Source of the DNA: Paludibaculum fermentans
Lineage (GTDB): Bacteria; Acidobacteriota; Terriglobia; Bryobacterales; Bryobacteraceae
Length of the DNA: 64,000 nt
Reading direction: 5' to 3'
Assembly: GCF_015277775.1 (NCBI RefSeq)
Contig: NZ_CP063849.1
Coordinates: 3,720,001 to 3,784,000, forward strand
Below are positions 2,435-60,915 of this stretch, piece after piece; the stretch's first letter is position 1, and each line of letters starts with the position of its first letter. The notes under the pieces were generated by a model that worked only from the letters and a program-made list of their open reading frames with translations, was not told where the DNA came from and made no database searches. Made by a program: the position numbers and the translations under genes.

Positions 2435-3355
2435 TCAGTTCTGCGGCATCGGTTGCGGCAGCATTGGATGCGGCTGTCCCATCGGGAAGCCCGGCGTGTG
2501 CGCCAGGATCCCCAGGAACACATCGATCTGGTCATCCCAGAAATCCCACGAATGCACGCGCGGCGAGATCTCCCTGTATTCATATGGAATCTTCTTGGAG
2601 GCCAGCAGGTCCACGAAATCCCGGTTCTGTTTGATCAGGAAATCCTGCCCGCCACAGGCGATATACAGCAGCGGCATCTGGCCGGCCGGAACCTTATCCA
2701 GCAGCTCAAACGGATCCCGTTCCTTCCGGGCTTCTGATTCGGCGGCGCCGAACAGCGCGTTCATCTCCTCGGTCCGCTTCCGAGCCTCCGCCGTAGCCGT
2801 CGCCGGAACCGCCATGGGCGCGCTGTGCGAGATCGCCAGGGCTCCGCTAAACGCACCAATCGCTGCGAAGCGCCCGGAGTGCTTCAAGCCCAGGAACATC
2901 GCTCCGTATCCGCCCATCGACAACCCCGCCACCGCCCGCGCGCGGCGCAGCGGAATGCTGCGATAGTTGCTGTCGATGTAAGGGATCAGGTCTTTGACGA
3001 TCATGTCCTCATACTTCGCCGCTGGATCGGCCGCGCTGTTCACATACCAGTTGCGGCCCACGTCCGGCATCACCACGATGATCCCGAAACGGCTCGCATA
3101 GGCGGAAACATTGGTCATGAACGTCCAGGCCGTATGGTCGTCACCCAGGCCGTGCAGCAGGTAAAGCACCGGGTACCGGCGCGTCGACTGCTGATAGTCC
3201 ATCGGCAGGATCACGTTGCACAGGCGATCGGCATTGAGCGACTCGCTGTGGTACTTCATCGTCAGGACGTTGCGCGCCACCACGCCCTTGCTGACTTCGG
3301 CGGCCTGCACAATGCCAAGCACGGCAATCAGGGTGAATAGAATTCGGGAAATCAT
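2435..3355 (-). CDS. Secreted alpha/beta-hydrolase, putative esterase (esterase D / S-formylglutathione hydrolase type)
   Basis: This is a serine esterase of the PF00756 type, about 306 aa, starting at MISRILF with a signal peptide (ILFTLIAVLGIVQAA). YPVLYLLHGLGDDHTAW is the typical oxyanion-loop strand. GLSMGG (Ser at about residue 146) is the nucleophile elbow, and the late histidine of VHSWDFWDD (about residue 268) completes the triad together with an Asp in the GGQDFL region. Relatives hydrolyse acyl or feruloyl esters or act as mycolyltransferase-like enzymes; the substrate here is unknown. An upstream extension of 10 residues is possible, but the signal peptide favours the start used. 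The C-terminus is rich in Pro and Gln. Confidence 0.85.
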   Translation of the reverse strand: MISRILFTLIAVLGIVQAAEVSKGVVARNVLTMKYHSESLNADRLCNVILPMDYQQSTRRYPVLYLLHGLGDDHTAWTFMTNVSAYASRFGIIVVMPDVGRNWYVNSAADPAAKYEDMIVKDLIPYIDSNYRSIPLRRARAVAGLSMGGYGAMFLGLKHSGRFAAIGAFSGALAISHSAPMAVPATATAEARKRTEEMNALFGAAESEARKERDPFELLDKVPAGQMPLLYIACGGQDFLIKQNRDFVDLLASKKIPYEYREISPRVHSWDFWDDQIDVFLGILAHTPGFPMGQPHPMLPQPMPQN

Positions 3356-54854: not shown

Positions 54855-55168
54855 CCAGTTCCCCTTCTTTCTGTCTTGGACACGCCGTTCTGGAACTTGC
54901 ATTGCAGTTCATGGTCCAAAGGACGCGCTCCCTCTTTGACCGCGAGCGACTTGCTGGCGGGTGGGCGAATCGGGACGCCGCATGGCGAGGATGGATGAAG
55001 GCCGTCGAAGGGGGGCGTTACCTACCGGGGAGGGTAGTTGCGGGCGCTGTGACCGGAGTTCCTCCGATGAGACGGAGAGAGGAAACGGAGGGGGGATGAG
55101 CGCGGCTGTTGGCGCGGCCGGCTCTAGTAAAGTTCCCTGGGGAACCTACCGAATACGGTAGAGAAGAG
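54855..55168. other. Divergent intergenic region between ku and the AAA ATPase gene
   Basis: About 310 bp, GC-rich, with no credible coding frame. It presumably holds promoters of both genes. I see no repeats or clear palindromes. Confidence 0.4.
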
Positions 55169-56734
<1,566 letters not shown>

Positions 56735-58307: not shown

Positions 58308-59318
58308 TCAGCAGGGCCGGCCTTGCGTCTGAATGAGCGCGGCAGCGATTGCCGCGCTGATGGGCAAGGCCGCGTCCAGTTCGGTCCAGAGCCAGTTGCC
58401 GGATACGTTCGATTCCAGGAAGCGGATCTCATCGTTCTCATCGACGGTGAGATCGCAACTGGCGTAACGCAATCCGAGCGACGCGACCAGCGTTACCAAC
58501 GAAGCCTGGATGGCGGGAGGCAGGGGGAAGGGCTCGGCGCGAAAGTTCGTTTCGCGGCGGAAGTCCACCGGCGCGCCGCTGCGGACGCGCATGGCCGCGG
58601 AGAAGACGCTGTTGTCGACCACCGTGGCTCGAATATCGAATTTCTTGTGGACTCGTTCCTGGAGGAGAGACGGCGTGGTGTCGACACTGTCCCGATGACC
58701 GGACGGCAAGGGCCGAAACTCGACCGCGTAGGGAGCGGAGAAGTTTTCAGTGGTGAGTTCATGGGCGTGGACGAACTCTCCGCTGACCTTGGCGAGCGCG
58801 GCATTCGAGATCGGCTTGATGATGCAGTCGTGGTTGTGGGCCGCGTGGAATTCCAGAAGCTTCGAGTAGTCTGAGCTGACGATGCAAGGGGGGACGCTCA
58901 AGCCCGCGGCGATGGCCTGCTGGGCTTGGAGGATGCGGCAATCGGCGCGCGCCTCGACCCAGGGATCGTTGATCCACAGTGATGAGTCCAACATGCGCAA
59001 AGGCGCCAGGAACGCGGCCAGTTCTTCGGATCTGGAGAAATAGGCGAGGGGGTTGGCATCAGACGGCGTCAGGCCATCGATGGCGAAGCGGCAGAGCACT
59101 CCTGTGATGTCGGCTGACGACAGTGTTTCGCCGGATGGGAACTCGTACACGGCGCGAGTTCCCGTCCCGGTTTCAATATGTACGTTCGCTGGAAGACAGT
59201 GATCGACGGTGGGATCGACCCTGACGACCCGGACACCTTTTTCGCTCAACCGGTAGACGACGCTGTCCGCATGAAGATCGCTCTCGAGCGCGACGAGCAA
59301 GACCGCTGAGGAGTCCAT
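58308..59318 (-). CDS. MvdD/TgmB-like ATP-grasp peptide ligase (graspetide maturase)
   Basis: 336 aa. A pre-ATP-grasp domain (~1-110: VLLVALESDLHADSVVYRLSEK, RVVRVDPTVDHCLPANVHIE, VLCRFAIDGL) is followed by a hinge (SLWINDPWVEARADCRILQA, AGLSVPPCIVSSDYSKLLEF). The catalytic ATP-grasp part has CIIKPISNAA with the ATP-binding Lys, LLQERVHKKFDIRATVVD, YASCDLTVDENDEIRFLESN and NVSGNWLWTELDAALPIS. This class forms omega-ester or omega-amide bonds in RiPPs. It starts immediately after the candidate precursor stop (TAAATG), so the two are coupled. No methyltransferase gene is adjacent. Confidence 0.85.
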   Translation of the reverse strand: MDSSAVLLVALESDLHADSVVYRLSEKGVRVVRVDPTVDHCLPANVHIETGTGTRAVYEFPSGETLSSADITGVLCRFAIDGLTPSDANPLAYFSRSEELAAFLAPLRMLDSSLWINDPWVEARADCRILQAQQAIAAGLSVPPCIVSSDYSKLLEFHAAHNHDCIIKPISNAALAKVSGEFVHAHELTTENFSAPYAVEFRPLPSGHRDSVDTTPSLLQERVHKKFDIRATVVDNSVFSAAMRVRSGAPVDFRRETNFRAEPFPLPPAIQASLVTLVASLGLRYASCDLTVDENDEIRFLESNVSGNWLWTELDAALPISAAIAAALIQTQGRPC

Positions 59319-59606
59319 TTAGCGACCGGCGCGCTTGTCGGTTTTGCCCGGCACAATGGTGGACGACTTGTATTTCCCGCTCGGGGTGTAGCCGGCGGGA
59401 ATGGTGTGACCGGGGGTATAGCAGGAGGTTGGCGGGCTGCTGCTGCGGGCGAGATGCAGCGGCAAGCCGTCGACACCGACATTCAACTGCCTCTCGCTGC
59501 TGTACTCTTCGTGGTCACTGTTCGTCGGACCAGTTTGAGATATGGGATAGGGCTGAAGAAAGAACGCGATGAGTGGTTGTTGGTTTTCCATACTGGATGA
59601 ATTCAT
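59319..59606 (-). CDS. Candidate graspetide precursor peptide
   Basis: 95 aa starting MNSSSMENQQPLIAFFLQPY, with AAGG in front. A leader-like part ends with EEYSSERQLNVGVDGLPLHL, which resembles the YDPERQ..V..DG.PL block of ATP-grasp-target RiPP precursors. The C-terminal core region is rich in Thr, Ser, Pro and Gly (SSSPPTSCYTPGHTIPAGYT, SGKYKSSTIV) but contains only one acidic residue near the end (KTDKRAGR). It directly precedes the ligase gene. It is probably the substrate, but modified-residue positions cannot be assigned. Confidence 0.68.
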   Translation of the reverse strand: MNSSSMENQQPLIAFFLQPYPISQTGPTNSDHEEYSSERQLNVGVDGLPLHLARSSSPPTSCYTPGHTIPAGYTPSGKYKSSTIVPGKTDKRAGR

Positions 59607-59746
59607 TTCTGTGTTGCCTTTCGAAGTAGCTTGCGGCTCAGCTTCCAGACAACACCGTCAACAGTACCATCGTCCGCATTCCAGACGAAGATTAGGGCCG
59701 TTTTGTCCTTTGTTTCCTGCGATGACGGGCCGGTTCGGGCACCCAC
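59603..59746 (-). CDS. Candidate 47-aa small protein upstream of the precursor
   Basis: A GTG-initiated frame reads MGARTGPSSQETKDK then TALIFVWNADDGTVDGVVWK and ends KATQK, its stop overlapping the precursor start by ATGA. Most of the 5' half overlaps the end of the next gene in another frame. The LIFVWNADDG segment looks protein-like, but no ribosome site is clear. Alternatively it is the frameshifted end of the 143-aa gene. Low certainty. Confidence 0.3.
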   Translation of the reverse strand: MGARTGPSSQETKDKTALIFVWNADDGTVDGVVWKLSRKLLRKATQK

Positions 59747-60123
59747 CAACGGAGGGGTATGGGGCGAGGTGAAATGTCGCTCACAACGTCGCTGCCACCC
59801 CAGACATAGCGACCGGTGCGTCCCGAGAGTTTCCAGCCTTTCGGTGGATTGCCCAGTGGTGCAGCGTAGATTATTTCGCGTCCAAACAAGCGTGCGCGCA
59901 TCACCCGCAGTAGCGGCTCGCCCTGGGGGCTGCCCTGCAGGAGCCCAGCCGGGTCGTCTACCAGGACGAACGCCCGGCTGTGGCTGACGGCCGTGATGAT
60001 CCTGCCTGCAAGAGGGAGTTCGATTTCCTCAGCCGGACTGACCAGGAGACCTATGCCCTCCAGTGGATTGTCGATGGACTGGTCCCAGGCCAGATAGACC
60101 CTGTAGCGCTTCGGCTTCCTCAT
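59692..60123 (-). CDS. Hypothetical protein upstream of the graspetide genes
   Basis: 143 aa from MRKPKRYRVYLAWDQSIDNP. It contains EEIELPLAGRIITAVSHSRAFV and KGWKLSGRTGRYVWGGSDVV, and a basic C-terminal tail (RHRRKQRTKRP). No family is recognised. It is the first gene of the minus-strand set that includes precursor and ligase, and overlaps the 47-aa frame. It could be a cluster-specific partner or an unrelated gene. Confidence 0.5.
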   Translation of the reverse strand: MRKPKRYRVYLAWDQSIDNPLEGIGLLVSPAEEIELPLAGRIITAVSHSRAFVLVDDPAGLLQGSPQGEPLLRVMRARLFGREIIYAAPLGNPPKGWKLSGRTGRYVWGGSDVVSDISPRPIPLRWWVPEPARHRRKQRTKRP

Positions 60124-60330: not shown

Positions 60331-60915
60331 TTATTTGGTCGGCCGCGAGCCGGTGATCAGGATGTCCACCAGCCTTTGGGCACTCTGCTGCCAGTCGGGA
60401 CTGGCGGCGACGTTGGCCACTCCGATCAGGGCCCGCAGCAGGTCGAGGGGGTCGAGGTCTTCCCGGATGTCGCCACTGGCGATCGCGCGCTGGACCAGGG
60501 CCCGGATCGCGTCCCAGATCTGAACGTGCGAAGACTCGAAGACCTTGGAAGCGCCGCCTAGCAGCGTGTTCAAGACCGGCGCGATGAGCTTCTTCGCCGC
60601 GATGTACTCCACAAACAACTTCATCCAGGCCCGCAAGGCCTCAATCGGCGGCATCGACTCGGCGAATTTGCGCTCGGCCGCGGCGAGCTTCGCCACTTCC
60701 GTCCGATAGACCGCTTCGATCAACGCCTCGCGCGTCGGGAAGTGGCGGTACAACGTGCCGGCACCCACTTCGGACTGCTTGGCGATCTCGTCCAGGCTCG
60801 CTTCCGCGCCAAACCGCGTGAACGCCTCCTTGGCTACCTGCAGAATGCGGTCGCGATTCCGCTCCGCATCGGCGCGCGGTTTTCTGGAGGCGGGTTGAAC
60901 ACGCTTGGTGGCCAC
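60331..60915 (-). CDS. TetR-family transcriptional repressor
   Basis: 194 aa. The N-terminal HTH spans ~18-65 (RNRDRILQVAKEAFTRFGAE, ASLDEIAKQSEVGAGTLYRHFPTREAL) in the standard TetR layout. The C-terminal helical domain (AWMKLFVEYIAAKKLIAPVL) binds a ligand and dimerises. It is divergent from the SDR gene with two palindromic operators between them, so it very probably represses that operon and itself. Confidence 0.92.
   Translation of the reverse strand: MATKRVQPASRKPRADAERNRDRILQVAKEAFTRFGAEASLDEIAKQSEVGAGTLYRHFPTREALIEAVYRTEVAKLAAAERKFAESMPPIEALRAWMKLFVEYIAAKKLIAPVLNTLLGGASKVFESSHVQIWDAIRALVQRAIASGDIREDLDPLDLLRALIGVANVAASPDWQQSAQRLVDILITGSRPTK

Follow-up and report, generated by a model that had tools for sequence, protein, structure and literature searches.

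A probable two-gene graspetide-type locus with an acid-poor precursor core in Paludibaculum fermentans

The ligase and its adjoining peptide gene

The window (the whole stretch of 64,000 nucleotides analysed here) probably holds a two-gene RiPP locus of the graspetide type, in which an ATP-grasp ligase is paired with a precursor peptide, and the product is most likely a graspetide that has one ring at most. Both genes are on the minus strand: P0001 (58308-59318) is an intact ORF encoding a graspetide-synthetase-like ATP-grasp ligase of 336 aa, and P0002 (59319-59606) encodes the putative precursor, a 95-aa peptide recognised by a sub-cut-off match to TIGR04186 and by its rank on a leader profile. 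Unmodified and untagged, the peptide has a calculated monoisotopic neutral mass of 10261.01 Da. The first-pass annotation had the ligase beginning right at the stop codon of a 95-aa peptide gene, and the positions of both ORFs were confirmed; the peptide TAA directly abuts the ligase ATG, the two ORFs are in the same frame, and this stop-start junction suits translational coupling. By codon usage, the ligase scores 78.7 bits in its own frame against -124 and -117 in the two others of the minus strand, a very strong coding signal, and the peptide's own frame is the best of its strand by more than 20 bits, with an absolute signal that is weak (-1.9). Only one such ligase is present in the whole genome (9.53 Mb, two contigs).

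Identity of the ligase

Profiles, invariant residues, modelled fold and phylogeny together support the ligase as a graspetide synthetase. Among NCBIfam models, TIGR04187 (ATP-grasp ribosomal peptide maturase) ranks first (E 1.5e-48), its 165.6 bits falling short of the curated cut-off of 350 bits; MvdC (TIGR04185) follows with 103.8 bits, MvdD with 83 and RimK with only 23.4, and the curated cut-off is reached for none of the models matched. In an alignment with 60 relatives, the ten invariant residues (Q131, K168, R230, D252, R254, D289, F300, E302, N304, and G307) are all kept, and the usual E-[IV]-N-P is replaced by E-S-N-V. The AlphaFold2 model (pLDDT 87, pTM 0.88) has one low-confidence insertion, at residues 197-210, and when it was searched against the PDB, ranks 1-32 were all graspetide macrocyclases (E 4e-26 to 1e-16), comprising AMdnB, PruB, MdnC, MdnB, PsnB, and CdnC, with RimK (3e-15) and LysX ranking after them.

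In a tree of 114 sequences, the ligase groups with TgmB-type enzymes of Actinomycetota and several acidobacterial ligases (clade support 85/94), a position that may also be described as among TgmB-type and microviridin-type ligases. Its branch is very long, at 2.5 changes per column, and identity to the closest relatives that the searches found is about 26-34%. Exact peptide patterns yielded no close relative in the GTDB r220 contigs; a second scan used the pattern E[IV]NP, and because the ligase itself lacks it, that scan was blind to any relative sharing the change to ESNV. The enzyme had been called MvdD/TgmB-like from the sequence, with a place outside the graspetide ATP-grasp clade named beforehand as the result that would speak against the locus; the best profile, fold and tree agree with that call, and the ligase lies inside the graspetide synthetases.

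The peptide leader

Two elements of the peptide resemble graspetide leaders. The first, PLIAFFL (aa 11-17; 59556-59576, minus strand), fits the published graspetide leader motif Phhx(1,2)h (PMC8939145), and the second, SSERQLNVGVDGLPL (aa 36-50; 59457-59501, minus strand), aligns with the Y-D-x(3-4)-LNLSV-x-K..P elements of other precursors; the block EYSSERQLNVGVDGLPL likewise has aligned counterparts in the precursors of other loci, for instance IEYDETLNLSVDKSTRLPAI. TIGR04186 is the sole NCBIfam family matched by the peptide at E up to 1, with 14.2 bits and E 0.034 over 18,950 models, below the cut-off of 25 bits. TIGR04187 and TIGR04186, the two profiles first proposed for checking the pair, are thus each the top profile for their protein, with the curated Tgm cut-offs unreached by both.

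When a leader profile was made from 27 other precursors, with the peptide itself left out, the peptide scored 9.3 bits on it; the best of 2000 shuffles reached 4.7, and all 365 other small ORFs of the window scored below it. A chance resemblance of the leader is therefore very unlikely, as judged from sequence comparison, and the likeness to ATP-grasp-target RiPP leaders noted in the first-pass annotation is borne out by both the two elements and the profile score. Searches for relatives of the peptide gave matches at chance level only, and no homologous locus of the ligase and peptide pair was found, so that conservation of the leader could be judged against remote precursors only, where its elements do recur. 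Nor was there a homologous locus that would allow a test of selection on the gene pair.

An acid-poor core

The scarcity of acids in the core is the most distinctive feature of the locus and had been missed at first. The predicted core (aa 53-95; 59322-59450, minus strand) holds 17 Ser/Thr/Lys, one Cys and one acid, Asp90 (codon 59337-59339, minus strand). Counted over the last 45 residues, the peptide has 1 acid versus 5-13 in the 27 comparison precursors; these were hand-picked by leader motif, and the range describes them rather than a census. A frame error hiding an acidic core was considered and rejected, as reading the core region in either of the other minus-strand frames also gives few acids.

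Two consequences follow. With Asp90 as the single core acid, at most one canonical ring is available. Further, one acid or none in 45 residues is expected in about 4% of ordinary sequence, given protein composition, so that the stretch is possibly no graspetide core. Makarova et al. describe only two clusters that allow just a single ester bond (PMC8939145); cores with one acceptor are therefore rare, yet known.

Upstream ORFs and surroundings

The first-pass annotation counted two small genes upstream, and one of them holds up. P0004 (59692-60123, minus strand, 143 aa) is a probable gene, co-directional with the peptide and ligase genes. It is an orphan: it has no family match above chance and no plasmid match, a credible relative is absent from 100 related genomes (chance-level matches only), and its single-sequence fold is uninformative (pLDDT 35). 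Among graspetide synthetases, partner-dependent cases have been described (PMC13097080). The other ORF (59603-59749, minus strand, 48 codons) is doubtful: it lacks an ATG and runs over the end of P0004, and its TGA shares bases with the ATG of the peptide (ATGA). Near 59760 the codon signal shifts, by a few bits only, from the frame of P0004 to that of this ORF, and the two may perhaps be one gene with a frame change, or reflect an assembly error.

When the eight other genomes of the genus were searched, none matched the window between about 54.9 and 60.3 kb. The TetR gene upstream (60331-60915) is part of a conserved block shared with two congeners, and because that block ends at the TetR stop codon, the gene was excluded from the locus. 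On the other side, below 58304, lie convergent genes for a membrane protein with a zinc ribbon and a small protein that looks exported and matches no family, and past them an AAA ATPase, Ku and LigD. A plus-strand gene at 55109-56734, outside the congener-conserved block, encodes a protein that combines a zinc ribbon, an AAA domain and AAA_lid_6, and about 14 consecutive Glu occur in its linker.

No methyltransferase, protease or peptide transporter was seen among the genes scanned between about 45 and 63.7 kb (part of the ORFs there), in line with the earlier remark that none lies nearby. Genome-wide, there is no C39 leader peptidase and no TgmC methyltransferase (TIGR04188) above cut-off; the best TIGR04188 match (105.6 bits) lies a long way from the locus, and sub-cut-off matches of this sort occurred in 14/14 control genomes. 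PADLOC gave no match for the ligase, the peptide or P0004. A defence-system reading, drawn from the TIR-like and membrane neighbours of two related loci, was rejected, as those genes are absent here.

Proposed function and alternatives

We infer the action of the ligase on P0002, the ring, its position and the role of the product, and the scheme is as follows. The ligase would bind the N-terminal leader of the 95-aa peptide and, using ATP, would phosphorylate a side-chain carboxylate, which a nearby Ser, Thr or Lys would then attack to give a macrolactone or macrolactam with the loss of one water. With no second acceptor in the core, at most one ring would form, between Asp90 and a donor within about T64-T83; that the ring does lie at Asp90 is a tentative assignment, to which we give somewhat less than an even chance. 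Removal of the leader and export would be left to general cell enzymes. The graspetides characterised so far are protease inhibitors (PMC8939145). Several points count against the pairing: the sub-cut-off scores of both proteins, the core with its one acid, the long ligase branch, the weak codon signal of the peptide, and the failure of the searches to find a homologous locus.

A different history, which we hold to be unlikely, is that the locus is decaying: the pair would have been acquired, the core acids and the upstream frame then lost, and an intact ligase left without a functional product. Such a course would fit the nearly acid-free core and the possible frame change upstream, as well as the long ligase branch and the 54.9-60.3 kb stretch unmatched in all eight congeneric genomes. 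However, the ligase ORF is fully open, keeps every invariant residue and has its strong codon signal, and in the peptide the leader elements are kept and the frame is open from start to stop.

Less probable again is a linkage outside the canonical chemistry, in which the 17 possible core donors would react not with a core Asp or Glu but with the leader acids (D31, E33, E34, and E38), the C-terminal carboxylate, or another molecule or protein. The mismatch between 17 donors and one core acid is the argument for it, and the four leader acids are clustered between the two leader elements; acids in that place, however, are common in ordinary precursors. Other RiPP ATP-grasp enzymes do form head-to-tail or peptide-to-amino-acid bonds (PMC8939145), but no such chemistry was found among graspetide synthetases in the literature examined, and the fold and sequence of this ligase are closest to ordinary macrocyclases. 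Finally, that the 95-aa ORF is spurious or unrelated, with the real substrate elsewhere, would suit the sub-threshold TIGR04186 score and weak codon signal, but is highly improbable given the leader-profile test against 2000 shuffles and 365 ORFs, the contiguous stop and start, and the lack of any other NCBIfam match. A paired ligase and precursor thus remains the preferred reading.

Related loci

The searches also brought up loci that differ from the one in the window. In four genomes of the window's family, an entire peptidase domain is fused to graspetide-like repeats in a large protein encoded directly upstream of a graspetide-type ligase: an S8 subtilase in L159 (1956-4007, plus strand; Pfam S8 E 7e-27), M43 metalloproteases in L160 (5691-7133, minus strand) and, from another genus, L161 (2497-4083, plus strand), and an M12A astacin in L162 (4533-5930, minus strand; E 2e-47). 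In these fusions, repeats such as TLKFRDD are followed by a C-terminal motif of the kind PF-[IV]-L-S-T-P-H-H-S-M-A-W, looser in L162. The repeats are presumably modified and the C-terminal motif recognised by the ligase, as if a protease bore its own modified inhibitor together with a natural C-terminal recognition sequence. Engineering has shown that a recognition sequence can stand at the C-terminus (PMC13003496); a search of the open-licence literature turned up no account of a natural example or of a protease-precursor fusion. These peptidase fusions are more surprising than the gene pair of the window.

Three related loci have no peptidase; in each, another protein directly precedes a ligase of this kind. 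That of L165 (3974-5104, minus strand) is 375 aa long, contains DPK repeats by the dozen and ends in GPFILTTNWPY; those of L163 (3576-4238, plus strand) and L154 (the ORF upstream of its ligase) are proteins of roughly 170 aa with an APFVA.APHH-type motif. In two acidobacterial graspetide loci (L003:34-936 and 2466-3299; L002:2202-2861), the downstream protein looks membrane-bound by eye, and in one of the two a TIR-like protein is encoded upstream as well (E 2.6e-6 to a PADLOC TIR effector). Graspetide-type ligases were further seen on twelve IMG/VR viral contigs (L136-L147) and in Leptospira phage LE1 (KF114876.1); the viral L143 ligase, with 33% identity, is one of the nearest to that of the window.

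Place among known graspetides

The locus has two features of the class: its ligase is nearer to the MvdC/MvdD/TgmB/PsnB kind than to RimK, and it adjoins a precursor with the Phhx(1,2)h motif. Among the closest known systems is the Tgm system of Actinomycetota (TgmA/TgmB, TIGR04186/TIGR04187), which provides the best profile for both proteins and shares the tandem precursor-ligase order, the leader block Y-x-x-E-R-Q and the region of the ligase tree. In contrast to that system, both proteins here are below its cut-offs, no TgmC methyltransferase above cut-off accompanies them, and the core lacks the acid-rich ending of a Streptomyces TgmA. Plesiocin- and thuringinin-like precursors (MKPLIxEF ... 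EYDxxLNLSV ... repeated TETFT..E.SDSD) have a similar leader architecture, PLI-x-F and then Y...LNV...P, whereas the peptide described here has no repeated T..T/E..D cores, and their ligases are in another clade. The microviridin synthetases MdnB/MdnC/AMdnB and PruB resemble the ligase in fold (best PDB matches 7m4s and 9bou), and PLIAFFL is similar to the PFFARFL leader helix; however, the TxKxPSDxD[DE] core is absent, there is a single ligase rather than a pair, and identity is about 25%.

In gene content, with nothing further in the locus, the pair resembles graspetide groups 27, 28, and 35, which consist of synthetase and precursor only (PMC13097080). The first-pass annotation described a very small and undescribed graspetide locus; the graspetide likeness stands, but because these synthetase-and-precursor groups were already published, the locus is not of an undescribed kind. 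With this gene pair the graspetide synthetases gain a branch that is deep and isolated; otherwise the pair is one more graspetide locus among roughly 18,000 predicted (PMC13097080). Its interest lies with the core. Should no ring form at Asp90, a new acceptor must be involved, and the non-canonical linkage, if true, would take ATP-grasp peptide linkages beyond the canonical chemistry, with the usual core Asp/Glu not serving as acceptors. If a single ring is indeed made, the locus would offer a simple case of one ring and one enzyme in a chemistry that usually gives interlocked or repeated rings.
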